Positions 4,180-45,203 are shown, counted from the stretch's first letter. The stretch is 45,714 nucleotides of DNA from Candidatus Poribacteria bacterium (GCA_028820655.1 JAPPIK010000059.1:32956-78669); one strand, 5' to 3'. Notes: a model not told the origin generated them from the letters alone. Numbers and translations are program-made.

Positions 4180-5394
4180 ATGAGATCGTTTCCCCCAGAA
4201 GAACTCTACTACATTACCCACATAAACAATCTACATTCTATCCTTGAAAAGGGAATCTTGTCTCATGAAAGGATTGAGCAACTAGGATTAGGGTATACAT
4301 CGATTTATAATGAGGGGGTGGTCAGCAAACGCAGGAACAAATCAACGCCGGGGGGTGAAAGCCTCTGGCACTATGCCAACCTATACTTTCAGCCTCGAAA
4401 TCCGATGATGTATAGTATTGTCAGTACAAGAGACAAAGAGAATCTTGTTGTTATAGGCATATCGAAGGAGGTGTTATACGAACACGGTGTTCTTTTCACT
4501 GATGGCAACGCAGCCAACGCTCCAACACAATTTTACTCTCAGTCTGACGGACTAAAAATCCTTAAGCAACAGTGGAATGCGATTCGAAACGACTGGTGGA
4601 ATAAAGATGACGGATCCAAGCGCAAAATCATGGCAGAGTGTTTGGTACCCAACAGCGTGAACTCAAAGCACATCAATTCGCTGTTCGTTGTCAATACCGC
4701 AATTGGAAGCCGAGTAAAGCAGATTGTTGGGGAGCGCCAAATCTCTGTAATTCCAGAACCTCACATGTTCTTTCAACCGGGATCTCGAACCCAGATCGGA
4801 AACAATGTTTCCCTTGTTGACGGTGATATGTTTTTTTCCACCATGCATACGTTAACAATTAGCGTTAATCTTCAAGGAGTAATGGGAAAGGGGCTGGCGT
4901 CGCGTGCGAAGTATCAATTTCCTGATGTCTATGTAGAATACCAAGATGCATGTCGTGCAAGGAAGATTACAGCGACACGCCCCTATCTTTATAAACGTGA
5001 GACTTCATTAGATTACGAGTTGGCAGACCCAAGTTTACCGCTTTCGACTCCCAACGCTGTAAAATGGTTTCTGCTCTTTGCGACCAAGCGAAAATGGCGC
5101 GAAAACTCGCGATTAGACGACATCGAAGCTGGATTGGACTGGGTAAAAGGAAATTACAAAAAAGAAAAAATTGAGTCGCTCGCCATGCCGGCTCTAGGCT
5201 GCGGTTTGGGTAATTTGTCTTGGGCTGATGTGGGGCCGCTCATGTGCAAATATCTGCATGGACTAGAGATTCAAGTCGCAATCTACCTTCCGCGCGAACA
5301 CGAGACAACTGAACAGTATTTGGACGAAGCCTATTTGCTTGGTAATCAAGTTAATAGGCCATCCTCATCCGCGAAACAGTTGGCATTCTTTTGA
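4180..5394 (+). CDS. DarT-like ADP-ribosyltransferase fused to DarG-like macro domain
   Basis: One 404-residue protein combines toxin-like and antitoxin-like parts. Residues 1-195 match DarT (DUF4433), which ADP-ribosylates thymidine in single-stranded DNA using NAD+: LYYITHINNLHSILEKGIL at 9-27, Arg51/Arg52, YFQPRNPMMY at 69-78 and the catalytic-type Glu153 in MAECLVPNSV. Residues 210-370 match the DarG macro domain, which removes the modification: GVMGKGLASRAKYQFPDVY at 233-251, FATKRKWRENSRLDDIEAGL at 300-319 and MPALGCGLGNLSW at 336-348. DarG's extra C-terminal DarT-binding domain is absent. DarT and DarG are usually two adjacent genes. No good ribosome-binding site is seen, but conserved sequence starts at residue 9. 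Likely a self-restrained DNA-modifying defence or toxin-antitoxin module; activity is inferred from motifs only. Confidence 0.88.
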   Translation: MRSFPPEELYYITHINNLHSILEKGILSHERIEQLGLGYTSIYNEGVVSKRRNKSTPGGESLWHYANLYFQPRNPMMYSIVSTRDKENLVVIGISKEVLYEHGVLFTDGNAANAPTQFYSQSDGLKILKQQWNAIRNDWWNKDDGSKRKIMAECLVPNSVNSKHINSLFVVNTAIGSRVKQIVGERQISVIPEPHMFFQPGSRTQIGNNVSLVDGDMFFSTMHTLTISVNLQGVMGKGLASRAKYQFPDVYVEYQDACRARKITATRPYLYKRETSLDYELADPSLPLSTPNAVKWFLLFATKRKWRENSRLDDIEAGLDWVKGNYKKEKIESLAMPALGCGLGNLSWADVGPLMCKYLHGLEIQVAIYLPREHETTEQYLDEAYLLGNQVNRPSSSAKQLAFF

Positions 5395-5780: not shown

Positions 5781-5842
5781 TTCGCATTAGACCGGGGAAT
5801 GCTAAACACCGAAAACGTTAGCCGCTCCGAATCGTCACTAAC

Positions 5843-5878
5843 CATCAAGCGAGTGGATAGCGAGTGCGATAGAAATCC
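5843..5878. repeat. GATCAAGCGAGTGGATAGCG-family repeat
   Basis: One clean copy of the dispersed unit: ATCAAGCGAGTGGATAGCGA followed by GTGCGATAGAAATCC. This is the simplest copy of a family that is expanded and rearranged elsewhere in the window. Confidence 0.8.
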
Positions 5879-6010
5879 ACTGGCCACTGCTTTTTTCTTG
5901 AAATCTTGGTTTCATTCTCACTCAATTCTGCTATACACCGACATCCTATAGAAATGATACATCCACCGTCAGCCAATTATTCATCCCTCCCGCAACTCGT
6001 TAATTTTAGA

Positions 6011-6039
6011 TTGACTACTTAACATGTATGTGGTATATT
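6011..6039 (+). promoter_or_regulatory. Sigma70-like promoter with no gene behind it
   Basis: TTGACT (6011-6016), a 17-base spacer and TATATT (6034-6039). A GGCC-TAAC-GGCC hairpin follows about 10 bases later, and a variant of the same block is at about 5660-5692. No open frame follows, so it would drive an untranslated RNA, or it is a chance match. Confidence 0.35.
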
Positions 6040-6222
6040 ATACGGGCCTAACGGCCATGACGGCGCAACTTTAATTTTCTGTTGGCATTCTGTTAGCATC
6101 ACGATTCCTGATAACCCGCTCCAATAAAGGGATTCTCCATTTCAGAAAATGCTAACACGCCGCTTGAATCGAAGCTCCGTTAGCATCTCATTTCACTGTA
6201 TCGGCTCAAGAGACAAAGCGGT

Positions 6223-6349
6223 GATCAAGCGAGTGGATAGATCAAGTGACTGAATAAGGAACGATCAAGGGAGATCAACTGACTGGATAAGGAAGGCGAT
6301 AGAGATCCCATAGCGACCGCGATAGAAATCCCAGTGCGATAGGGATCCA
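6223..6349. repeat. Clustered GATCAAGCGAG-family repeats
   Basis: Several degenerate units in a row: GATCAAGCGAGTGGATAG, ATCAAGTGACTGAATAAGG, GATCAACTGACTGGATAAGG, then GCGATAGAGATCC, GCGATAGAAATCC and GCGATAGGGATCC. The alternation of a 'CAAGYGAGTGRATA' half and a 'GCGATAGARATCC' half shows the unit is modular. Confidence 0.8.
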
Positions 6350-6619
6350 AGCGTTTATTGACTTAAGCGATGACCTTACGTGAAAACATACTATGCACGG
6401 CAAATCTATAGCCGCACCTTTGACTCCCAACACTCTATCAAAGTGTGCCTCGAATCGTGGGGCGAAATATACGCGCGCACAATAGCGCACCCCCGTGGCG
6501 CCTGTCGTACATGGCTTCAAGCCCCACAGGGCAAGGATTCAAGCGCAATTCCAGAACTAATCCAAGTTGTGCGCTCTTATCTCGAAAGCGCAGAAGCCGC
6601 GTTTTTTCCCAATACCACC

Positions 6620-6651
6620 GAAATCAAGTTTTTTCTTGAAAACTTGGTTTC
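6620..6651. repeat. Full 32 bp AT-rich palindrome
   Basis: Arms GAAATCAAGTTTT and AAAACTTGGTTTC with loop TTCTTG; one G-T pair breaks perfect symmetry. A TTTTTTCCC half copy precedes it. Confidence 0.85.
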
Positions 6652-7083
6652 TTACTCGCTCAATTCTGCCGGGTACATTTCAAACGATGCCAAGGACGTC
6701 AACTCTATCAAATCAGACCGAATTCATATCGTCGACATCCCTGCTTTTTGGCTAAGCGGCAGGAGGCGCGCTAAATGATATTCGCAGTATATCGCAGGAA
6801 ATCGCATAGCGCACCAATCCCGTCCAACCCCTGTCATCACTGGATTCTAAGCGACTTCTTGCTATGAGCCGTCGTCTGCGACGACATCCGTGATCGCACG
6901 CCGTTGTGCATCACGCAAACCCGAAGCAAAAAAACAGGATGACCGTCAAACCATTGATGATTGATTGCGAGCCACTGCAAATAGCAAATCCCTACAAGGA
7001 TTCCGGTACAATAAACATCCTGATAGAAAACGGCAGAGTTGATTAAATCGCGGAGATACAGCGCTTCGGCGCGAGAATATGAG

Positions 7084-7166
7084 GATCAAAGGAGCGGATA
7101 GATCAAGTAACCGAATAGGGAACGCGATAGAGATCCCGTGCGATAGAAATCCCTCAAGCGGATAAA
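7084..7166. repeat. GATCAAGCGAG-family repeats upstream of the rpsF promoter
   Basis: Degenerate units GATCAAAGGAGCGGATA, GATCAAGTAACCGAATAGGG, GCGATAGAGATCCC, GCGATAGAAATCCC and TCAAGCGGATAA. They end about 135 bases before the promoter of the ribosomal operon. Confidence 0.75.
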
Positions 7167-7300
7167 TAAGCATTGCCGCATCTCCCCAATCTCATGACCG
7201 TTCATTCGCGCCTTTGAACACTCAGCGCTAGGAATGAATCCCCAAAAGACGGGCAATATTTTGGAAAGAGGTTTAATCTTTGGCATTGCTGCAATCTTGG

Positions 7301-7329
7301 TTGATAACATAGCTGAATTATGATATAAT
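7301..7329 (+). promoter_or_regulatory. Sigma70 promoter of the rpsF-ssb-rpsR-rplI-dnaB block
   Basis: TTGATA at 7301-7306, exactly 17 bases, then consensus TATAAT at 7324-7329. Transcription would start near 7336 and give an 80-base leader before rpsF. This is the best promoter match in the window. Confidence 0.8.
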
Positions 7330-7342
7330 TTCCCGAATCTCT

Positions 7343-7388
7343 GCTCCGTTTCGCATTTAAATTGTAAATCTCAATACCGATGCGGAGC
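7343..7388 (+). promoter_or_regulatory. Leader hairpin, candidate S6:S18 autoregulatory motif
   Basis: GCTCC (7343-7347) pairs with GGAGC (7384-7388) and GCAT (7353-7356) with ATGC (7380-7383), leaving a five-base bulge (GTTTC) on one side and an unpaired CCG at 7377-7379 next to the stem. Leaders of rpsF in many bacteria bind the S6:S18 complex through a CCG at a helix junction, copying 16S helix 22. Placement directly before rpsF fits; the exact match to the known consensus is not verified. Confidence 0.45.
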
Positions 7389-7416
7389 CACACGTCCAAA
7401 GGGAGGAATAGCAATA

Positions 7417-7884
7417 TTGCGAGAATATGAATTGGTTCTGATTATCAACCCGGACCTTGAAGAGGCCGAGACCGAGTCGCTCATCGAAAGAATTAAGACG
7501 AATATCGAATCAAATGGCGGCGAAGTGCTCAAGGTTGATGCATGGGGAAGGAGGAGGTTGGCTTTTCCCATAAAGAAAAATAACGACGGCTACTATGTTT
7601 TACTCATCTTTAAGGGTGATCCGGCTTTTGTTCTCCAACTCAGCAACTCGTTTCGGGTGATAGAATCTATTGTTCGACACATGGTGGTGCTGTTTGAAGG
7701 TGATCTTGACAAGGTGATTTCGCTGAGAGAGGAAAGTCGACCTCGAGAGAGGATGGCACGACGTCCGCTGGAAGCGGAAGACCAGTCGGTTGCCCCGGTA
7801 ACCGAATCGGAAGATGAGAATAGTGTTTCGGAAAATGAAGGCGAGGATCAGGCAAAAGAAGAGACAGTTCCTGATAACTCCTAA
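7417..7884 (+). CDS. rpsF: 30S ribosomal protein S6
   Basis: S6 binds 16S rRNA with S18 in the platform of the small subunit. The first 95 residues are a normal S6: MREYELVLIINPDLEEAE, then VDAWGRRRLAFPIKKNNDGY, then VRHMVVLFEG. The last 60 residues are an acidic, low-complexity tail rich in Glu and Ser, longer than in E. coli S6 (135 aa total). The start is TTG, fixed by GGGAGG 10 bases upstream and by the conserved N-terminus. It is the first gene of rpsF-ssb-rpsR-rplI-dnaB, a very common bacterial order. Confidence 0.97.
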   Translation: MREYELVLIINPDLEEAETESLIERIKTNIESNGGEVLKVDAWGRRRLAFPIKKNNDGYYVLLIFKGDPAFVLQLSNSFRVIESIVRHMVVLFEGDLDKVISLREESRPRERMARRPLEAEDQSVAPVTESEDENSVSENEGEDQAKEETVPDNS

Positions 7885-7916
7885 CATGGCTAAGCGCTAA
7901 ATAAGGAGATGATATT

Positions 7917-8354
7917 ATGGCAAGTTACAACAAAGTCATACTTATGGGAAACTTGACCCGCGATCCGGAACTGAGATATCTTCCGAGCGGATCGGCAGTG
8001 GCAAATATCGGGCTAGCCATTAATCGGAATTGGACAGATCGCGAATCCGGTGAAAAAAGGGAAGAGGTGTGTTTTGTTGATCTGGAGGCGTTTGGAAGAA
8101 CCGCTGAAACCATGAACGAATATCTGCAAAAAGGTAGGGCGGTATTAATCGAAGGGCGCCTAAGATATCGCACGTGGGAAACAGATGACGGACAAAGACG
8201 GAGTAAACACGATATCTTTGTAGAGCGATTTCAGTTTGTCGGTGGGCGCCAGGACGGCGGCGAGTCGGGCGAGTATAGTCAACAGGGCGACGCGGCGCCT
8301 CAAGCTTCCTCATCTGGCGCCGAACCGACCACCGAAGACGATATCCCGTTCTAG
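7917..8354 (+). CDS. ssb: Single-stranded DNA-binding protein
   Basis: Protects single-stranded DNA in replication and repair. Residues 1-110 are the OB fold: MASYNKVILMGNLTRDPELR, then CFVDLEAFGRTAE, then GRLRYRTWETDDGQ. A short Gly/Ser/Gln linker follows, and the C-terminus is DDIPF, the usual acidic tip that binds partner proteins. 145 aa, slightly short. AAGGAG lies 8 bases before the ATG. It is co-transcribed behind rpsF with a gap of 32 bases. Confidence 0.97.
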   Translation: MASYNKVILMGNLTRDPELRYLPSGSAVANIGLAINRNWTDRESGEKREEVCFVDLEAFGRTAETMNEYLQKGRAVLIEGRLRYRTWETDDGQRRSKHDIFVERFQFVGGRQDGGESGEYSQQGDAAPQASSSGAEPTTEDDIPF

Positions 8355-34511: not shown

Positions 34512-34780
34512 CTAACGCACAGGATGTGTAGGTTTCAGGGGTATTCCCCTTAAACCGTTGAATTACGCATTAAAGCATTCATGCCCATATCAAGATTGCT
34601 TAACTGTGTGCCGCAGGCATGCGCTCAATAGATTAGGTTCCGTCAACATTTTGACACAACAAGATAATTGAGAGCGTGCCATTATCTCTGTCGGAATAAT
34701 TCTTTCAGCAGGTAACACCGGTTTTCACACCTTGGTTAGCTTGGAAAAAGCGTTCCATGGTAGATATTTCCCGCGTCTCG

Positions 34781-35422
34781 CACTCCAGCGGAGTGCCATG
34801 TCAATAGACACGATTCCTCCTAGCGTCTGCACTCCAGCGGAGTGCAATGTCGAGTGTCACTTGATAGCGCGCCATTATCCCTGTCGCGATAATTCTTTCA
34901 GCAGGTAACCCCCTTGTACCGCAAACTGTTAGTTTGCGGATCACAATCCATCAGCGGGACACATTCATTCATCGCTTTATGACTGGCTGTAAAAAGTGTT
35001 CCTTCGTCGTCTGGTTTTCACTCCAGCGGAGTGAGGTGTCAATAGAACACGACTCCTCCTCGCGTCTGCACTCCAGCGGAGTGCTATGTCAATAGAATCG
35101 TGATGCGTCCAATCATCGCACTCCAGCGGAGTGCAATGTGGGGTGTTACTTGAGAGCGTCCCATCATTCCTGTCGGAATAATCCTTTCAGCAGGTAACCC
35201 CCTTGTACCGCAAACTGTTAGTTTGCGGATCACAATCCATCAGCGGGACACATTCATTCATCGCTTTATGACTGGCTGTAAAAAGTGTTCCTTCGTCGTC
35301 TGGTTTTCACTCCAGCGGAGTGAGGTGTCAATAGAACACGACTCCTCCTCGCGTCTGCACTCCAGCGGAGTGCTATGTCAATAGAATCGTGATGCGTCCA
35401 ATCTCCGCGCTCCAGCGGAGCG
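34781..35422. repeat. CACTCCAGCGGAGTG hairpin family, at least eight copies
   Basis: 15-base hairpins (6 bp stem, AGC loop) start at about 34781, 34830, 35019, 35069, 35119, 35308, 35358 and 35408; the last is the variant CGCTCCAGCGGAGCG, which also occurs at 155. Within each block they are spaced 50 bases apart. Confidence 0.85.
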
Positions 35423-35447
35423 CAATGTCGAGTGTTACTTGAGAGGG
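34870..35447. repeat. 289 bp direct repeat, two copies
   Basis: The sequence AGCAGGTAACCCCCTTGTAC recurs at 34900 and 35189, and the following 200 bases are nearly identical. Each copy has a perfect palindrome CCGCAAACT-GTT-AGTTTGCGG and three CACTCCAGCGGAGTG hairpins. A partial third copy precedes it at about 34672-34725. Confidence 0.85.
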
Positions 35448-35750: not shown

Positions 35751-35779
35751 ATAACCTCCAATCCACACAATGTGTCTAA
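35751..35779 (+). promoter_or_regulatory. ECF-type promoter-like motif upstream of sigma fusion 1
   Basis: ATAACCT (35751-35757), 16 bases, GTCTAA (35774-35779). Compare GGAACTT and GTCTAA of sigmaE-type promoters. The identical spacing and the shared CAATGTGTCTA core recur upstream of the second fusion gene at 40493-40521, although the distances to the start codons differ (about 45 and 172 bases). Suggests self-activation; untested. Confidence 0.5.
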
Positions 35780-35824
35780 TTAGTAGTTTCACCGATGCTT
35801 TCATTCACAAATTGGGTGGGTGTC

Positions 35825-38167
35825 ATGTATTCAGCCGACGAAAAGTTAGTGTCCCAAACCCTCGCGGGTGACCGCGACGCCTTCGGAATGCTGGTGCACA
35901 AATATCAGGATATAGTTTATTCCTACGCTTTTCAGAAGGTGAGGAACGAGGCTGATGCGCAGGACATCACCCAAGAGATTTTCCTACAGGCGTATCGTTG
36001 CCTCTATCAACTCCGACAACCGCATCTCTACCGAAGCTGGCTGTATACCATCATGTCCAATGAGTGCAAACGTTGGCTGGAGCGGGTTACCAAGAACCGC
36101 CGGCGCGAGGTTGCTATAGACGATACCGCCGATGAAGCGCTGCAGGTTGAGTCCGCGCACACGGCACCGGTCGAAGACAGGCAGGTGGATCTTGAACAAG
36201 CAATGTCCGCACTCCTCGACGAAAATCGGGTCGCCGTAGCGATGTTCTACATGGGTGACTGTTCGCTGAAGGAGATTTCAGAATTTCTAGGTGTCTCCGT
36301 GAACACCGTCAAAGGGAAGTTGCATCGTGCGCGCCAGCAACTTGGGGCTGCCATGTCCCAGCACTACGGCAAACTGTTGAAAAGCCACAAACTTAGAGGA
36401 GGTTTTCTCATGCAATTCATGGAGCATATTCGTCACGTACCGGCACCGGCGATGGGGTTCACGTGGAGTAGCGCAAGCATTGGCAAAAGCTTATTTGCTC
36501 TGATTACCGCGTTGTGCATCTTGATTGCGCTGGTTGGAGGACGAGAAAATCTGGCGATTGAATCATCAATAAATCAAACCGAGGTGGTACCAGTAAGTTC
36601 TAACCGATGGCCGATTGAAGTTACACTGATGACTCCCGCTGTCAACTCGGCACACACGTCAATCTCGGGCATACCGGTGCCAACGGGAAAACGTCCGCTG
36701 GATCCCTCGGGCCGTGGCCCAATAGAGCAGAGCGGTCGGTCAATTGGTCGAGAGGTGACATCCGCTGCCAATGGCGCGAAAACCCCTAATCCGCAATTCT
36801 CGGCGGCTATGGCGGAGAACGAGCCCAAAAAGCTGACCTTTTCTGGTCGTGTTGTTGACAGCGATGGTGGACCGGTGGCAGATGCTGAGATTTTGTATTC
36901 CGCAAAGTACAATCAGTCCGATTCAGTGGCCCGCACGGAGGATGATGGGACGTTTCGATTTGAATCTCCCCGTCTCGAACTCAAGGATTGGGAGCGTGTA
37001 AGCGTTATCGCTACGCATCCCGATCACGCCTTAGGGTGGCGGAAGCTTCGGCTTGAAGACACGGTGGATGTTGAAATCCGACTTGAAACGCCTGGGGTTA
37101 TTACCGGTAGGATTTTGAACGAAGATGGTGTACCAATTCAGAACGCGGTAGCACGGATTCAAGTTTTGTTCAGTGACAATCCCGCGCTGCTGGGGCGCGA
37201 CGAGGGCAGCCTGGCGAGTGATGCCATCCCCATTTCCCCCGCCACGACCGACGCAAATGGGGAGTTTATTCTTCGTGCATTGCCGCAAGGTATTACAACG
37301 AACCTGGAAACTCATGGACCGGGATACGCAAAGGAGTTGCACCTCAGGGTATCCGTCGGTACAACGGGACTCAAATGGCAATTGAAGCGTGAAGGTAGGA
37401 TTGCGGACAAACTCAGTTACACGGGAACCGGCGCACCGGTTGAAGACGCAACAGTCGCGCTCCAGGGAATTTATCCAACCACCGGGTGGGGGCGGGCTCA
37501 CGTCGATGCGGAAGGGAATTACATTCTGACCAACCTCGCGCCTGGTTTTTACAATCTTTATCTCTATGAGGGACCAGAAGGGTGGACGGCCGTCGCCAAA
37601 GAACAGATTAAAGTGGTTAAGGGACAAACCGTTTCCAACATGGATTTGACGCTGGTTCGGGGCGATTTCATCACCGGGCGAGTGACTGACCAAGACACAA
37701 GTGAACCGATTGTCAACCACCATGTCGGTTTTCACGACGCTGCCCGTCCGGAATCTCAGGCAGCCGGTCACGGAACAGAAACGGACGAAACCGGTGCGTA
37801 TCGCTTCCGAGCCGCGCCCGGCAGAGCACGGGTATTCGTCAGCGCGGCGCATGGCTATCTGGATGTCGGACAGACAAGAAAGCATGTTGATGTGGTTGAA
37901 GGGGAAAACGTCGCCGTTGATTTTCAGTTTTCGAAAGGTGCGGAATTAGCGGGTAGAGTTCTGACAGAGGCGGGTGAACCGGTCGCCGGAGTAAAAATTA
38001 CCGACATGCGAGAGCGGTATAAGGGGTATGGCAGATCAAACGAATCGGGTGCGTTTACGGTTCGCGGGTTACGGGTCGGACAAAAACTTACCCCAAAAAG
38101 CGGAGCATACCGGACTGGGATTACGCGGAACTGCCGAGGTCAAGGTCCAGCCGAATGGGTCGGTTGA
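35825..38167 (+). CDS. ECF sigma factor-transmembrane-carboxypeptidase-regulatory fusion, copy 1, 5' part (frameshifted)
   Basis: First of two tandem paralogues. Residues about 10-85 are sigma2 (RDAFGMLVHKYQDIVYSYAF, ADAQDITQEIFLQAYR); about 120-178 are sigma4 with helix-turn-helix (MGDCSLKEISEFLGVSVNTV). One hydrophobic helix follows at about 223-240 (LFALITALCILIALVGG), so the rest would be outside the cytoplasm. Five carboxypeptidase-regulatory-like repeats (type GRVVDSDGGPVADAEI) come before the frame breaks at an A5 run, 38095-38099; the last 23 codons are out of frame. The paralogue at 40694 continues without a break. The ATG at 35825 (MYSADEKLVS) matches the start of copy 2. An internal ribosome-binding site lies at 36395. 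If the frame is truly broken, the periplasmic part is truncated. Confidence 0.85.
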   Translation: MYSADEKLVSQTLAGDRDAFGMLVHKYQDIVYSYAFQKVRNEADAQDITQEIFLQAYRCLYQLRQPHLYRSWLYTIMSNECKRWLERVTKNRRREVAIDDTADEALQVESAHTAPVEDRQVDLEQAMSALLDENRVAVAMFYMGDCSLKEISEFLGVSVNTVKGKLHRARQQLGAAMSQHYGKLLKSHKLRGGFLMQFMEHIRHVPAPAMGFTWSSASIGKSLFALITALCILIALVGGRENLAIESSINQTEVVPVSSNRWPIEVTLMTPAVNSAHTSISGIPVPTGKRPLDPSGRGPIEQSGRSIGREVTSAANGAKTPNPQFSAAMAENEPKKLTFSGRVVDSDGGPVADAEILYSAKYNQSDSVARTEDDGTFRFESPRLELKDWERVSVIATHPDHALGWRKLRLEDTVDVEIRLETPGVITGRILNEDGVPIQNAVARIQVLFSDNPALLGRDEGSLASDAIPISPATTDANGEFILRALPQGITTNLETHGPGYAKELHLRVSVGTTGLKWQLKREGRIADKLSYTGTGAPVEDATVALQGIYPTTGWGRAHVDAEGNYILTNLAPGFYNLYLYEGPEGWTAVAKEQIKVVKGQTVSNMDLTLVRGDFITGRVTDQDTSEPIVNHHVGFHDAARPESQAAGHGTETDETGAYRFRAAPGRARVFVSAAHGYLDVGQTRKHVDVVEGENVAVDFQFSKGAELAGRVLTEAGEPVAGVKITDMRERYKGYGRSNESGAFTVRGLRVGQKLTPKSGAYRTGITRNCRGQGPAEWVG
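36395..36412 (+). promoter_or_regulatory. Internal ribosome-binding site and ATG inside sigma fusion 1
   Basis: AGAGGAGG (36395-36402), 7 bases, in-frame ATG (36410-36412). It lies exactly between the sigma4 region and the membrane helix and would start a separate membrane protein, MQFMEHIRHVPAPAMG. Copy 2 has the same arrangement at the same codon. Confidence 0.65.
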
Positions 38168-39497
38168 AATCCGGCTGCAAAGTTATGAGCGGACCAGAAT
38201 CTCCGGACGCGTGGTCAACCGCAGGGGAGAACCAATGTCGTCAGTGAACATCGATTTGATGCGCTGGGACCCCCTGCGAAACATGGGAACCAGTTCAACC
38301 GTTGCTCTGACGGATGGCGGCGGATGGTTCCGGGGGATTGGGCTTATCGTCGGCGACGAGTACACTGTCTCCGCTAATGCGGAAGGATATCGAGAGGCAG
38401 AGACTGAGATGTTCACCGCGATGGCTGAGATGACCCAAATCGCGGATCTCGAACTGTTGCCAGTTCTCAGTCAGTTTTTCATTGAAGGCCACCTCACGGA
38501 TTCCGCCGGCAAATCGGTCCGCGGTGCTCGGTTAAACATACAATACCCAGAGTTTAAGGAAACACTCACGGACGAAAACGGTGTTTTTCGGTTTGAAGAC
38601 CTCTCCATGGCTGTCATTAACGAAGTGAATATCGACCACCCGGACTACGCATACCATTCATTCAAGATCTTGAAAGCCAACCAGCGTCACGACTTTGTGT
38701 TAACCAAAGCGGATGGATACATCTCTGGCACGGTTGTGGATGCCGATGGCAATCCGATTGAACGAGCAAACGTGATGGTAGAAGCCGAAGAGGATTCCTC
38801 CGGATACATTTATTCAGGGGTTCGCGCCAACGTGCTTGGGAAGTTTGAACTCAAGCACATCAAAGACGCTATGGTATCAATTTATGTCAGCGCCGATCGA
38901 GACTATAAGATATATGAGGATATTGAGGTGAATCAGCGGGACTTGGTCTTGACGTTGACGCCGACGGAATGGGGACCGGAACCTACCCCGGAGGAACAAG
39001 CACGCATGAAGGCGCAGCAGGCATACGTCGAAGACGCGGAAGAGCGGTTCAAGACCTTGGTGAACCAACCTGCACCGGAGTTGGCAGTTTCGGAGTGGAT
39101 GTCCGGTCCGCCCATTTCCATTAGAGATTTGGAGGGCAAGACGGTCGCCCTGTATTTCTGGGATGACACGGAGATTTCTGATAGAATTCACTGGGCGTGC
39201 CTGCTAAATCTTTTGAAGGAAGTGTATGGAGAAAAAGGGTTCGTCTGTGTTGCTGTTTGTCCCGCCACAACCGAAATTGAGAGGGTCAAACAACACATTG
39301 CGGAACATTCGCTTAACTACTCGATCGGTCTGGACAGTTCATCAGACGTCATCGGCGCGGAGGGTGAAACCTTCGATCGATTTGCTTTTGGTTGGCCAGC
39401 CGCTCCATTCACTCTAATCAACGCTGCAGGGGAAATTACCGGACGAGTTTGGGACAGCGAACTCGAAAGTCAGATCCAAACCATGCTTGCGGATTGA
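38028..39497 (+). CDS. Sigma fusion copy 1, 3' part: carboxypeptidase-regulatory repeats and thioredoxin-like domain
   Basis: Real homology to copy 2 starts near 38100 (KAEHTGLGLRGTAEVKVQ); the ATG at 38028 only opens the frame and its first 24 residues read the other gene part out of frame. Three more repeats follow (ISGRVVNRRGEPMSSVNID, IEGHLTDSAGKSVRGARLN, ISGTVVDADGNPIERANVM). The last 160 residues are a thioredoxin/AhpC-like fold (NQPAPELAVSEW, VALYFWDDTEISD, FTLINAAGEITGRVWD). The position of the redox CxxC has no cysteine pair. Removing one A from the A5 run at 38095-38099 joins this to the 5' part, giving about 1,223 residues, the same as copy 2. Confidence 0.8.
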   Translation: MADQTNRVRLRFAGYGSDKNLPQKAEHTGLGLRGTAEVKVQPNGSVEIRLQSYERTRISGRVVNRRGEPMSSVNIDLMRWDPLRNMGTSSTVALTDGGGWFRGIGLIVGDEYTVSANAEGYREAETEMFTAMAEMTQIADLELLPVLSQFFIEGHLTDSAGKSVRGARLNIQYPEFKETLTDENGVFRFEDLSMAVINEVNIDHPDYAYHSFKILKANQRHDFVLTKADGYISGTVVDADGNPIERANVMVEAEEDSSGYIYSGVRANVLGKFELKHIKDAMVSIYVSADRDYKIYEDIEVNQRDLVLTLTPTEWGPEPTPEEQARMKAQQAYVEDAEERFKTLVNQPAPELAVSEWMSGPPISIRDLEGKTVALYFWDDTEISDRIHWACLLNLLKEVYGEKGFVCVAVCPATTEIERVKQHIAEHSLNYSIGLDSSSDVIGAEGETFDRFAFGWPAAPFTLINAAGEITGRVWDSELESQIQTMLAD

Positions 39498-40203: not shown

Positions 40204-40692
40204 TCTTTACCTCCTGAGTCTCCCGATTTCAACCATGTTGCGAGGCGTACTTCTAAGTTCTGCATGGCGTTCTCTACTGTTTATTGATTCCTCTGCGAAG
40301 AGTCATTGGGAGTAATAGTTGTTGATGTACGAAATAACCAAGTACGATACAGACTATATCGATATTATCAGATGTTAAACAATCGTGAGAGAGGTGACTC
40401 ATTGGTTTCATTTTAGTACACAACACCCGGGATTTCAACTGATTATTTTTTGGATTGGAAGGAATTGCCGGCGTCTCTTTTTTCTTCGCGATGCAACTTC
40501 TGCTGCACTCAATGTGTCTATTTAGTATACGCCTCTCACACTTCGGTTTACCGCAGCATGATATCACTTCTTGTCCAAGAACGTATGGATGGGCTATGCA
40601 TCGCCGATTTGCGCGGATTTTAGCGTGGGACTAGCAAGCCCGATTGTAGTTTCGTCCTTGCAACTGTTTCGGTTTTCTGACTAGGTGCCAAT
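40204..40692. other. Intergenic region between the antitoxin gene and sigma fusion 2
   Basis: 490 bases with no convincing gene; a 97-codon minus-strand frame is unlike any protein. It must hold the divergent promoters. The ECF-type motif at 40493-40521 is the only clear signal. Confidence 0.55.
40493..40521 (+). promoter_or_regulatory. ECF-type promoter-like motif upstream of sigma fusion 2
   Basis: GCAACTT (40493-40499), 16 bases, GTCTAT (40516-40521), with the same CAATGTGTCTA core as at 35768-35778. Both resemble the AAC and GTC boxes bound by ECF sigma factors. Confidence 0.5.
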
Positions 40693-40693
40693 A

Positions 40694-43600
40694 ATGCATT
40701 CGGTCGATGAAAAGTTAGTGTCCCAGACGCTAGGGGGTGATCGCGACGCCTTTGGTGTTCTGGTGCACAAATATCAGGAAATGGTCTACACCTACGCCTT
40801 TCAGAAGGTGAGGAATGAGGCTGATGCTCAGGACATCATGCAGGAAATTTTCCTGCAGGCATACCGCCGCCTCTATCAACTCCGACACCCGCATCTCTTC
40901 CGAAGCTGGCTGTACACCATCATGTCCAATGAGTGCAAGCGTTGGTTGGTACGTGTCACGAAAAAACGTCGGCGCGAAATTGTCCTGGAGGAGGCCACGG
41001 ACGAAGCGCTGCGGATTGAACCTTCTCACGCAGTACCCGTTGAAGGCTGGCAGGTAAATCTTGAGCAGGCAATTTCCGCGCTCCCCGACGAAAGCTGGAT
41101 CGCGGTGTCGATGTTCTATATGGGAGATTGTTCACTGAAGGAGATCTCGGAATTTCTCGGCGTGTCCGTTAATACTGTCAAGAGCAAATTGCACCGTGCG
41201 CGCCAGCAACTTGGGGGTGCACTATCCGAACACTACGGCAGGCTTTTGAAAAGCCACAAGCTTAGAGGAGGATTTCTCATGCAATTCATGGAGCAAATTC
41301 GCCATGCACCAGCGCCAACGATGGGGCTTGCGTGGAGCAGCGCATCTGTTGGCAAGGCAACTTTTGCGCTGATAGCAGCGTTGTGCGTCTTGATTGGACT
41401 CATAGGTGTGCGAAACGATTTTCCGACAAAGTTATCAACGAGCCAGATCGGGTTAACGTCGTCAGTCGTAAACCGATTGCCAATCGAAGTCACGCTTCTT
41501 AGGGCGGTTCCTTACTCAACGCGTTCGCCAATCTCCGGCATTCCGGTGCCGACGGGCGAACGTCCACTGGATACCTCCAGCCGCGTCTCAATAGAGCAGA
41601 GCGGTCGGTCAATTGGTCGAGAGATGACATCCGCTGCCAATGGCACAAAAACCCCCAATCCACAATTCTCAGCCGCTATGGTGGAGAACGCACCCGAAAA
41701 ACTGGCCTATTCCGGTCGCGTTGTTGACAGTGATGGTGAGCCGGTAGCAGATGCCGAAATTCTATATTCCGTGAAATACTCAGTAGAATCCGCTCCGCCC
41801 AAGTCTGTCGCGCAGACTACGGCGGATGGCACCTTCAATTTTGAGTTTCCTCGTCCCAATCTCAAGGAATGGAATCGTGTAGACATCGTTGCGGTACATC
41901 CGGATCATGCGTTCGGGTGGCGCAATCTTTCACCCAAAAGCGCGACGAACGTTGAAATCCAGCTCGCAACGCCAGCGGTCATCTCCGGCAAAATCATGGA
42001 CGAGGCGGGTGAGCCGATTCAGGCCGGAGAGGCATGGATTGGACTGTTGTCCAGCAGCGACCAGTTGTTGGGCGTCCACGCGAGCTATTTGCTGGAGGAC
42101 GTCATTCCCATCCCCCACGCCAAGTCTGATCCGAATGGTGAGTTTGTTATCCACGGACTGCCGAAAGGCGGGAAAACGATTCTCTTTGTTCAAGGACTCG
42201 GATACGCTAAGGAGAGGAGCGAAGGTGTGCGAGTCGGCACGGAGGGGCTCAGGTTCCGGCTGAAGCGTGAGGCGCGGATTGAAGGACGCCTCAGCTACAC
42301 GGACACCGGTGAGCCGGTGCAAGACGCTACGGTTGCGCTCCAAGGCATCTACCCGACAGAAGTATGGGAACATGTAGGGGTTGATGTAGATGGGAAATAC
42401 TTCCTGAAAAACCTCGCTCCCGGCACGTACAGCCTTTTTCTCTTCGAGGGGCCCGACGGGTGGACGGCTGCCGCTAATGAGCGCCTAGAGATCGTGGAAG
42501 GACAGACAGTCTCTAACATCGACTTGACCTTGGTTAGGGGTGGCTTCATCACCGGGCGGGTGACCGACGCGGACACGGGCGAGCCGATTGCCAACCAGCA
42601 CATTAGTTTTTATGACGCTGCGCGTCCGGAATCACAACAGGCGGCTAACCACGGTGCGAAAACGGACGAAACCGGAACCTATCGCTTCCGCGCCGCTCCC
42701 GGTAAGGCACTCGTTTACACCGGTGCGGAGCACGGCTATCAGGATGTGGGACAGATGAGGAGATATGTGGATGTCGTGGAAGGCGCGACCGTCGCCGTTG
42801 ATTTTGAGTTTACGAAAGGAGTAGAATTGAATGGTCGGGTTCTGACGGAGGCTGGCGAACCAGTCTCTGGTGCGCGGGTTACCGACATCGCTGGTAAATA
42901 CGCATATTTTCATGAGCATGGCCTGTCTGACGAAAACGGTGGATTTACTGTTCGTGGGTTGCGCACCGGTCAGAAGCTCATCCTTAAAGCAGAGCACAGC
43001 GATTTGGGATTGCGCGGAACAGCGGAAGTCGAAGTAAAACCTCGCGCATCAGTAGACATTCGGATTAGACCCTACGAGTTGGTCAAAGTTTCTGGGCGTG
43101 TGGTCAACCCCAAGGGAGAGCCGATTGCGTCTGTGAACATCTATCGAATGCCATGGGACCCCATGCGAAATTTAGGAATGAGTTCAATCGTCGCCGTGAC
43201 GAACGGCGACGGACGATTCGGTGAAGTTGAGCTCGTCGTCGGTGACCAGTACGAGATTTCTGCGGTCACAGAGGGTTATCGAGAAGCACGAACCGAGGAG
43301 TTTACCGTGACACCGGGAATGCACCAGATTTCGGATCTCGTACTACAGCCGGCTGGCGGTGCGTATTTCATTGAGGGACGCGTCACCGATACATCTGGTA
43401 AACCGGTGAGTGGAGCACGGTTAGTAACCTCGCAGCAATCGCAACACTGGGAAACACTTACTGACGCAAACGGCGATTATCGGCTTGAGAATCTTTCCAT
43501 GGTAGTTCTCTACAGTCTGGACATTATCCATCCGGACTACGCTTACCATACGTTTGAGATTCTGAAAACCAACCAGCGTCACGACCTTGTGCTGGTCAAA

Positions 43601-44374
43601 GCGGATGGGTATATTGCCGGAAAGGTCGTGGACGCGGATGGCACACCGATTTACAGGGCGACGGTGGCGATAGACCCCCAAGAAGATCCAGCTACCGGAG
43701 TCGTTTACCCTGCCGTTGCCACCAACGGACAAGGCGAATTTGAGTTGAAATACATCAAAGATCCAACGGTGTCAATTGATGTCGGCAACGATAATGACTA
43801 TGGGGTTTTTGAGAATATCAAAGTGAATCAAGACGACCTTGTCTTGACTTTGACGCCGACCGAGCCGATTCCTGCTCCGACCCCAGAGCAGAGCGCGCGA
43901 TGGGCGTACGCGGAGGAATTAGAGGAACGATTCAAAGCCTCGGTGGGCAAGCCTACACCGGAACTGGCGGTCGAAGAGTGGCTGACCGGTACTGTCTCTT
44001 CCATCGGAAATCTGAAAGGGAGCACGATCGCTCTGGATTTCTGGGAATCTGGCAACTCCGACAACATCCAATCAGTACGCTTATTGAATGTATTGCATGA
44101 TATTTATGAGGAAAAAGGGCTCGTTTGCATAACCATCATTCCCCCTACAGAAGAGGTCGAAACGGTCAAACGGCACATTGCGGAACATTCTCTACGATAC
44201 TCAATTGGGCTGGACAAGTCAACGAAGGTCGTTGGCGCAAATGGCGAAACCTTTGATCGATACCTCATTGGAGGGAGAGGTTCGATTGTGCTGATTAACG
44301 CGGCGGGAGAGATTGCGGGCTCCGTATATCCCTGGGATCTTGGCGATCAGGTTCAGAATCTGTTTGAGGATTGA
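40694..44374 (+). CDS. ECF sigma factor-transmembrane-carboxypeptidase-regulatory-thioredoxin fusion, copy 2 (intact)
   Basis: 1,226 aa in one frame. Sigma2 at about 10-85 (AQDIMQEIFLQAYRRLYQLR), sigma4 at about 120-178 (GDCSLKEISEFLGVSVNTV), membrane helix at 222-239 (ATFALIAALCVLIGLIGV), a Thr/Ser/Pro-rich linker, eight carboxypeptidase-regulatory-like repeats (SGRVVDSDGEPVADAEIL, SGKIMDEAGEPIQ, TGRVTDADTGEPIANQHI, NGRVLTEAGEPVSGARV, SGRVVNPKGEPIASVNI, EGRVTDTSGKPVSGARL, AGKVVDADGTPIYRATV and a weaker one), and a thioredoxin-like fold from about 1080. The CxxC site reads FWESGNSDNIQS, so it is not a redox enzyme. Sigma factors act in the cytoplasm and the repeats should be periplasmic. No anti-sigma gene is nearby. 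The ATG at 40694 matches copy 1; GTG at 40685 is an alternative. Very unusual fusion; function inferred from domains only. Confidence 0.9.
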   Translation: MHSVDEKLVSQTLGGDRDAFGVLVHKYQEMVYTYAFQKVRNEADAQDIMQEIFLQAYRRLYQLRHPHLFRSWLYTIMSNECKRWLVRVTKKRRREIVLEEATDEALRIEPSHAVPVEGWQVNLEQAISALPDESWIAVSMFYMGDCSLKEISEFLGVSVNTVKSKLHRARQQLGGALSEHYGRLLKSHKLRGGFLMQFMEQIRHAPAPTMGLAWSSASVGKATFALIAALCVLIGLIGVRNDFPTKLSTSQIGLTSSVVNRLPIEVTLLRAVPYSTRSPISGIPVPTGERPLDTSSRVSIEQSGRSIGREMTSAANGTKTPNPQFSAAMVENAPEKLAYSGRVVDSDGEPVADAEILYSVKYSVESAPPKSVAQTTADGTFNFEFPRPNLKEWNRVDIVAVHPDHAFGWRNLSPKSATNVEIQLATPAVISGKIMDEAGEPIQAGEAWIGLLSSSDQLLGVHASYLLEDVIPIPHAKSDPNGEFVIHGLPKGGKTILFVQGLGYAKERSEGVRVGTEGLRFRLKREARIEGRLSYTDTGEPVQDATVALQGIYPTEVWEHVGVDVDGKYFLKNLAPGTYSLFLFEGPDGWTAAANERLEIVEGQTVSNIDLTLVRGGFITGRVTDADTGEPIANQHISFYDAARPESQQAANHGAKTDETGTYRFRAAPGKALVYTGAEHGYQDVGQMRRYVDVVEGATVAVDFEFTKGVELNGRVLTEAGEPVSGARVTDIAGKYAYFHEHGLSDENGGFTVRGLRTGQKLILKAEHSDLGLRGTAEVEVKPRASVDIRIRPYELVKVSGRVVNPKGEPIASVNIYRMPWDPMRNLGMSSIVAVTNGDGRFGEVELVVGDQYEISAVTEGYREARTEEFTVTPGMHQISDLVLQPAGGAYFIEGRVTDTSGKPVSGARLVTSQQSQHWETLTDANGDYRLENLSMVVLYSLDIIHPDYAYHTFEILKTNQRHDLVLVKADGYIAGKVVDADGTPIYRATVAIDPQEDPATGVVYPAVATNGQGEFELKYIKDPTVSIDVGNDNDYGVFENIKVNQDDLVLTLTPTEPIPAPTPEQSARWAYAEELEERFKASVGKPTPELAVEEWLTGTVSSIGNLKGSTIALDFWESGNSDNIQSVRLLNVLHDIYEEKGLVCITIIPPTEEVETVKRHIAEHSLRYSIGLDKSTKVVGANGETFDRYLIGGRGSIVLINAAGEIAGSVYPWDLGDQVQNLFED
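41264..41281 (+). promoter_or_regulatory. Internal ribosome-binding site and ATG inside sigma fusion 2
   Basis: AGAGGAGG (41264-41271), 7 bases, in-frame ATG (41279-41281) at codon 196, the same codon as in copy 1. A separate protein starting MQFMEQIRHAPAPTMG would have a short cytoplasmic tail, the membrane helix and the whole periplasmic part, about 1,031 residues. Confidence 0.65.
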
Positions 44375-44412
44375 GCGGACGGGCTTCGCTCGATTCGGGC
44401 GCTGGTGAAACG

Positions 44413-45203
44413 ATGGGAACCACAAGGCTGTCTCGAATCATCTGTCTAATCACCTTGTCCTTCTGTTTGGTGTTCCTGTCATTATCCTTTTGGATAATTG
44501 GCTGCGCACCGGAGATACAGGTACCCATTCCCGAAATAGAATTAACGTTGGCCATAGCGGATTTTAGCAGCATATTGGAGATCGTGGATGTCTCGGATCC
44601 CACAAAGCCCCTCAAAGTTTCATCGACTTCTCTACCTTCAAAACCGAAATTTTATAGTAGCATATCGGTTTGGAGGCAGTTCGCGCTGACAACCACGGCT
44701 TATGGAATCCATTTCTTGGATATAGCGAATCCTTCAGCCCCAAAACTTCTTTGGAATTTACCGCTCGGTACAATTTCAGGCAATACGGTGATTTTTAAAA
44801 CCCTTTTGCGTTTTTCCCAACGCAAAAGGGTTTGTATGTTCTTCATCTCAAGAATTCGTTGAATCCGCAATGGGTGTTTCACGCGGGACACAAAGGGAAT
44901 CTTCACACTCATCTCTTTGACCTAAAAATCAAGGGAAATTATGCCTATGCACATGGCAGGCATAATTATTTGCATGTTTTCAATCTTTCCCAACCTGAAC
45001 AACCTTATTTGGTAAGTTCCTATGACATAGGGTTGCGTCCGCCCGTCCTTCTCTTCCGTGCTAAGGGTGAAGTGGTAGAATTGATTCACCAACTTGCCAA
45101 AAATAATTTAGGCTCTTTGGCAAATAGCGTGCGTTTCTTTCGCCGGTTTTCGGACGCGCCGCAAGGAGAACTGCTTCGGCGACCTTCAACCCGCCGCCTG
45201 TAG
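44413..45203 (+). pseudogene. LVIVD-repeat lipoprotein, frameshifted at a hairpin
   Basis: Begins with a signal peptide and lipobox IIGC, then beta-propeller-like LVIVD repeats: ILEIVDVSDPTKPLKVSS, GIHFLDIANPSAPKLLWNLP. The frame then runs into a hairpin (44798-44833) and stops at 44860. The continuing repeats (YVLHLKNSLNPQWVFHAGHK, YLHVFNLSQPEQPYLVSSYD) are in another frame, to 45203. The last 40 residues no longer look like the family, and the GTAGGAGATC repeat array begins at the stop, so the 3' end is probably lost too. The ATG at 44413 lies 38 bases after sigma fusion 2. Confidence 0.7.
44798..44833. repeat. Perfect 13 bp hairpin inside the LVIVD gene
   Basis: AAACCCTTTTGCG (44798-44810), loop TTTTTCCCAA, CGCAAAAGGGTTT (44821-44833). 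It coincides with the point where the frame is lost. No other copy is seen in the window. Confidence 0.7.

Follow-up and report, generated by a model that had tools for sequence, protein, structure and literature searches.

How could an ECF sigma factor be kept silent when the sensor-like part that might control it belongs to the same polypeptide? The question is raised by a gene near the end of a 45,714-nucleotide window from a Candidatus Poribacteria bacterium (GCA_028820655.1 JAPPIK010000059.1:32956-78669, here G000:C48:32956-78669), whose genome comprises 5.88 Mb in 61 contigs and whose contig ends where the window ends. The frame 40685/40694-44374 is intact and encodes 1229 amino acids from a GTG or 1226 from an ATG start. 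Its features, in window positions and with residues counted on the 1229-residue form, are:

40694..44374, plus strand: gene for an ECF sigma factor followed by a transmembrane (TM) helix, eight CarboxypepD_reg repeats and a thioredoxin fold; ATG start, alternative GTG at 40685
40760..40954, plus strand: Sigma70 region 2, residues 26-90 (Pfam)
41057..41212, plus strand: Sigma70 region 4, residues 125-176 (Pfam)
41213..41353, plus strand: juxtamembrane segment, residues 177-223, containing a conserved predicted helix GGFLMQFMEQIRHAPAP and invariant columns in alignment A1
41354..41410, plus strand: single transmembrane helix, residues 224-242
41690..43849, plus strand: eight CarboxypepD_reg (transthyretin-like) beta-sandwich repeats (Pfam and model)
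43922..44371, plus strand: C-terminal TlpA/ResA-like thioredoxin fold without CxxC (profile search and model)

The N-terminal part matches Sigma70_r2 (PF04542, 48.3 bits, cut-off 24, E 9e-13), Sigma70_r4_2 (PF08281, 49.3 bits, cut-off 25.7, E 4e-13) and TIGR02937 (82.5 bits, cut-off 42.9), and as both sigma regions exceed the curated thresholds and region 3 is absent, the protein falls among the ECF sigma factors. Its predicted region 2 resembles that of E. coli sigmaE (4lup, TMt 0.87, 38% identity). Residues 224-242 form the sole strongly hydrophobic helix (KD 2.33, every other segment at most 1.2); a cleavable signal peptide in place of an anchor was considered and set aside, as an AxA-like site after the helix was not seen by eye. 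CarboxypepD_reg is matched in eight separate stretches (Pfam, E 9e-60), and an AlphaFold model built for the ectodomain, with a mean pLDDT of 72, contains eight serial beta-sandwiches, which start near residues 339, 433, 532, 622, 715, 802, 896 and 977 as counted on the DSSP string. A fold search with this ectodomain returned, at low TM-scores, adhesin and pilin stalk proteins of a generic beta-sandwich type, from which the fold class alone was adopted. Pfam, hydropathy and model thus bear out the first-pass annotation, which had described one 1,226-residue frame with sigma2, sigma4, a membrane helix, on whose presence its reading hinged, and eight repeats; the domain order also supports its view that a sensor-like part and the sigma factor are covalently linked through that helix.

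The identity of the C-terminal domain emerged from a family comparison. The single sequence matches AhpC-TSA weakly (E 0.008), and in the AlphaFold model the strands and helices of the tail are ordered as in thioredoxin, at a pLDDT of about 50; a profile of ten relatives matches ResA (4nmu) with an E value of 3e-12, and Redoxin is matched by 10/10 of them. Cysteines occur only at positions 84, 149, 234 and 1148 of the window protein, so CxxC is absent, as it is in 10/10 relatives, where other residues occupy the position of the ResA WCxxC. The domain is therefore predicted to be a redox-dead fold of the TlpA/ResA type, sharing its architecture with those proteins and differing from them by the lack of CxxC, much as first proposed.

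The fusion is found well beyond this contig. Seven full-length fused relatives with the same domain order and 53-67% identity are encoded by other Poribacteria (alignment A1), together with further partial relatives, and it is therefore not a chance product; sequence comparison likewise indicates that it is not a local one, and the concern that homologues might encode the sigma and repeat parts as separate genes can be laid to rest. Full-length relatives in the scan of named genomes were confined to Candidatus Poribacteria MAGs, the sigma domain alone matching elsewhere. A long match in a Bryobacteraceae locus (L174) was rejected because it consists of separate ORFs, and among loci from outside the phylum whose sigma part is followed by an extension, no comparable membrane helix was found in a scan that used two short sigma patterns and is weak. 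Pairwise dN/dS is 0.07-0.09 for the sigma domain and about 0.22-0.27 for the repeats, which argues for purifying selection on both, and the stretch linking sigma4 to the helix shows, in the two closest pairs, a level of constraint equal to that of the sigma domain. Along one pair (window 40694-44371 and L061:1592-5269 in G013:C60) dS is 0.34 in sigma, 1.39 in the repeats and 0.29 in the thioredoxin part, a contrast suggesting that tandem paralogues have recombined or undergone gene conversion.

Several related genes lack the sigma part. An orthologous ORF in G000:C41 (another contig of the source genome) and in G013 begins at the juxtamembrane segment and keeps the helix, the repeats and the thioredoxin fold, and a similar sigma-less copy is present in G021. 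The sigma-less anchored ectodomains, of which the first two are the orthologous pair, lie at:

L060:10176-12515, minus strand: sigma-less anchored ectodomain copy
L061:10552-12978, plus strand: sigma-less anchored ectodomain copy
L063:14494-17430, minus strand: sigma-less anchored ectodomain copy

The orthologous pair is 77% identical, and since its dN is 0.126 against a dS of 0.371 (dN/dS about 0.34), the anchored ectodomain seems to be maintained without sigma. It is possible that such proteins act as decoys or co-receptors. Also in G000:C41, a fusion of sigma, TM helix, CarboxypepD_reg and C-type lectin stands beside a similar CarboxypepD_reg-lectin gene without sigma (L060:4445-5773, 5801-8074).

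At a wider scale, the window gene belongs to a class that spans the phylum. All 85 Poribacteria genomes searched yield matches, many in frames near 1000 amino acids. G082, a genome in a single contig, has 102 Sigma70_r2 matches, 78 of them in frames of at least 400 amino acids; a membrane helix lies close behind sigma4 in 54 of its ECF ORFs, a count that leaves out further fusions without a helix, and exactly one helix is present in 47. In the source genome, where counts derive from searches and fetched stretches, a helix follows sigma in 12 of 33 ECF-like ORFs. The spacing is nearly constant, as helices begin 39-47 residues past the end of the sigma match in G082 and 38-46 residues behind sigma4 in most of 69 proteins. 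Ahead of the helix a sequence pattern recurs, reading FQITPNLTENIMREISRLKPxxPSGxKPLVPW in G082 and HKLRGGFLMQFMEQIRHAPAP in the window protein. Across the 69 proteins the ratio of K/R to D/E is 149:38 before the helix and 109:50 after it, so that the excess is stronger before; this charge bias, the single helix and the types of domain together suggest that the repeats and the thioredoxin part are extracytoplasmic. By contrast with the near-constant inner half, the ectodomains vary and include WD40, PD40, BNR/sortilin-like and C-type lectin domains, as well as CarboxypepD_reg with or without the thioredoxin fold. A constant signaling half with exchangeable outer halves is the pattern that would be expected of sensor families, and the exchangeable outer parts therefore fit a sensor role.

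Two further observations concern the same genome. About a dozen TM ECF fusion genes stand in tandem within 50 kb of G082 (C1:1522260-1573429, L207-L209). Elsewhere on its single contig, ECF sigma domains without a helix are joined in frame to proteins of replication and cell division, as confirmed by Pfam (L235:249-4520; L250:8398-10125 and 589-1815; L247:583-1950), the partners being FtsZ with DNA polymerase III alpha (1423 amino acids), the DnaN beta clamp (two genes) and the FtsZ GTPase domain.

A candidate promoter precedes the window gene, and a second its tandem paralogue:

40478..40527, plus strand: ECF-type promoter block with T-tract, -35-like AACTT, spacer and -10-like GTGTCTA; core at 40495-40520
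35753..35778, plus strand: further ECF promoter core, ahead of the tandem paralogue

A T-tract followed by AACYT-N14-GTGTCTA, which has the form of an ECF promoter, is found upstream of most close relatives. AAC at -35 and a GTC-type -10 thus stand before the gene's own start, in a motif restricted to family genes: the exact core occurs at only two sites in the 5.88 Mb of the source genome, preceding the window gene and the frameshifted tandem paralogue. Over seven genomes AACYT-N14-GTGTCTA has 12 matches, nine of which precede family genes or the pair of LVIVD and fusion genes in G019 and G021, and when the T-tract is required nine of 10 matches are at family genes. Since 25 scattered matches are obtained with the pattern reversed as a control, the evidence lies in the position of the sites and not in their number; nor are the counts independent trials, because family genes and their promoters share ancestry. 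G082 has a related promoter, TGCAA-N16-19-CGTCACTA, with eight matches genome-wide (control, one), of which seven lie immediately in front of ECF fusion genes whose ectodomains are of other types. The two promoter forms, from two lineages, agree. A recognizable motif was absent upstream of two sigma-bearing relatives (L060 5801-8074 and L061 1592-5272), and the regulon scan was strict, so additional members may be missed. It is plausible from these placements that the window sigma recognizes the promoter at 40495-40520, although such sites might equally be used by a different sigma factor.

No anti-sigma gene was found among the neighbors of the window gene in annotated frames and with Pfam, and in the source genome all four zf-HC2 anti-sigma genes adjoin short soluble ECF genes and never the fusions, in keeping with the absence of a separate anti-sigma factor that had been claimed from the sequence. 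The neighbors are a DUF433 gene on the opposite strand and the following two:

35795..39497, plus strand: tandem paralogue of the window protein, with a 1-nt insertion near 38100 (ORFs 35795-38167 and 38028-39497)
44371..45203, plus strand: LVIVD-repeat lipoprotein-like gene with a frameshift, truncated at the contig end by an array of 154-nt repeats

A programmed frameshift in the paralogue would require a +1 shift at a C-run/A-run; as a known +1 site was not recognized, an indel, real or from assembly, is preferred. LVIVD genes stand beside family genes in four loci (the window, G000:C41, G019 and G021) and form two diverged subfamilies with 19% identity; the relative in G000:C41 adjoins the sigma-less copy, and in G019 and G021 the fusion gene follows a distant relative. 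It is possible that the LVIVD protein is a partner of the fusion protein. The window also contains tandem 289-nt units with GCACTCCAGCGGAGTGC palindromes (34665-35445), tandem 154-nt units at the contig end (45189-45714), and a DarT ADP-ribosyltransferase that shares one 404-aa frame with a macro-domain part (4180-5394), like a fused DarTG toxin-antitoxin.

The layout itself has characterized counterparts. In Pseudomonas putida, IutY (ECF243) is a single polypeptide of 374 amino acids with sigma, TM and periplasmic parts that is released by Prc and RseP (PMC5411451); it is silent until that release, and truncations activate it (PMC5411451; review PMC8999054). Like the window protein, it joins a cytosolic ECF sigma, a single TM helix and a periplasmic regulatory part in one chain and lacks a separate anti-sigma factor. 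However, IutY has an anti-sigma periplasmic domain and acts with the outer-membrane receptor IutA (PMC5411451), whereas the window protein has eight CarboxypepD_reg repeats and a thioredoxin fold, its 1229 residues have no Pfam match to a FecR-type anti-sigma domain, and no receptor was identified. SCO4117 of Streptomyces coelicolor (ECF52), with sigma, zinc finger, TM and carbohydrate-binding parts, shows signs of positive autoregulation, and proteolytic release has been proposed for it (PMC5826349). ECF52 thus shares with the window protein the ECF sigma, the TM helix and an extracytoplasmic domain of binding type, but its zinc-finger anti-sigma-like domain and carbohydrate-binding module set it apart, and it is exclusive to Actinobacteria (PMC5826349); zf-HC2 is absent from the window protein by Pfam, where sigma4 and the TM helix are separated by only about 47 residues without cysteine, and the fused relatives found are all from Candidatus Poribacteria. 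The ECF57 proteins of Planctomycetes resemble many Poribacteria paralogues in that long WD40-like extensions follow the ECF sigma at the C-terminus (PMC8999054), yet they are proposed to be regulated through protein interaction and a conserved pair of Cys residues, and no member with CarboxypepD_reg or thioredoxin parts is described (PMC8999054). The transmembrane-regulated ECF sigma is therefore known as a kind, and the first-pass statement that no characterized example existed fails for the layout and holds for this ectodomain and family. The Poribacteria class is distinguished by the absence of the FecR-type domain and zinc finger, by its distribution, by its own juxtamembrane motif and by the repeat/thioredoxin ectodomain.

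Taken together, we hypothesize, at about even confidence, that the window protein is a membrane-tethered, autoregulated one-component ECF sigma factor released by regulated proteolysis. In this model, sigma2 and sigma4 would be cytoplasmic and anchored at the inner membrane through the single helix, and the conserved juxtamembrane segment of about 40 residues would join them to it and probably restrain them, while the stalk of eight sandwiches would carry the redox-dead thioredoxin fold as a terminal head that binds or senses a ligand. A surface signal would lead to clipping of the ectodomain, an RseP-type site-2 protease would then cut the membrane helix and free the sigma module to bind RNA polymerase, and the released sigma would drive its own promoter in a narrow positive feedback loop. 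We favor proteolytic release with self-amplifying transcription because of the IutY precedent, the signs of autoregulation in SCO4117 and the RseP-type protease encoded in the source genome, an M50 protease that has a PDZ insert; RseP is a general protease, and finding its gene is no specific evidence that the window protein is cleaved. In the AlphaFold model of residues 4-265 the juxtamembrane and TM helices have a pLDDT of around 50-60 and docking on sigma is not shown; Foldseek ranks anti-sigma-bound ECF factors (SigW-RsiW, AlgU-MucA and sigmaE-RseA) at the top, at TM-scores of only about 0.3, too low for the ranking to be given weight.

Alternatively, the tethered sigma might be switched by conformation, the juxtamembrane helix clamping sigma2 and sigma4 until a signal from the ectodomain moves it, whereupon the sigma would draw polymerase to the membrane in the manner of CadC- or ToxR-type regulators. 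The near-constant distance from sigma4 to the helix and the conserved sequence of the segment suggest a defined geometry and favor this option somewhat, and proteolysis would need one RseP for dozens of substrates; nevertheless, IutY, the best characterized sigma-TM protein, relies on proteolysis (PMC5411451), and we regard conformational switching as rather unlikely. Still less probable, to a degree that we would call doubtful, is an expression device in which an auto-activating sigma cassette serves to express a surface protein and the tether merely limits the loop: the promoter stands almost solely before family genes, a wider regulon was not found, and sigma modules in G082 are also fused to the non-sensory DnaN and FtsZ, but a strict motif scan may overlook regulon members, and the constant juxtamembrane-TM geometry with swapped binding-type ectodomains suits signaling better. 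A local fusion or assembly artefact without functional sigma activity is very improbable, for although the frameshifts in the tandem neighbor and the downstream LVIVD gene indicate that indels occur in this contig, full-length fused relatives exist in several species, the sigma domain is under strong purifying selection and the promoter is conserved.

For the phylum, we tentatively suggest, with slightly less than even confidence, that transmembrane sigma factors may be a main mode of surface signaling in Poribacteria, in which a constant, self-promoting cassette of sigma, juxtamembrane segment and TM helix, carrying dozens of exchangeable ectodomains in each genome, would take the role that two-component systems or pairs of sigma and anti-sigma factors have in other bacteria, and the juxtamembrane helix would substitute for the anti-sigma factor. 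An incomplete literature search found no paper that describes Poribacteria sigma factors in such terms. The whole phylum carries many putatively tethered sigma factors, and some genomes have dozens of them; their linker is nearly fixed in length, their outer domains are exchangeable, and a promoter of their own can be recognized. Two questions would thereby become accessible to testing: what keeps a tethered sigma silent when it has no known anti-sigma domain, and how many sigma channels can run side by side in one cell and stay insulated from each other.
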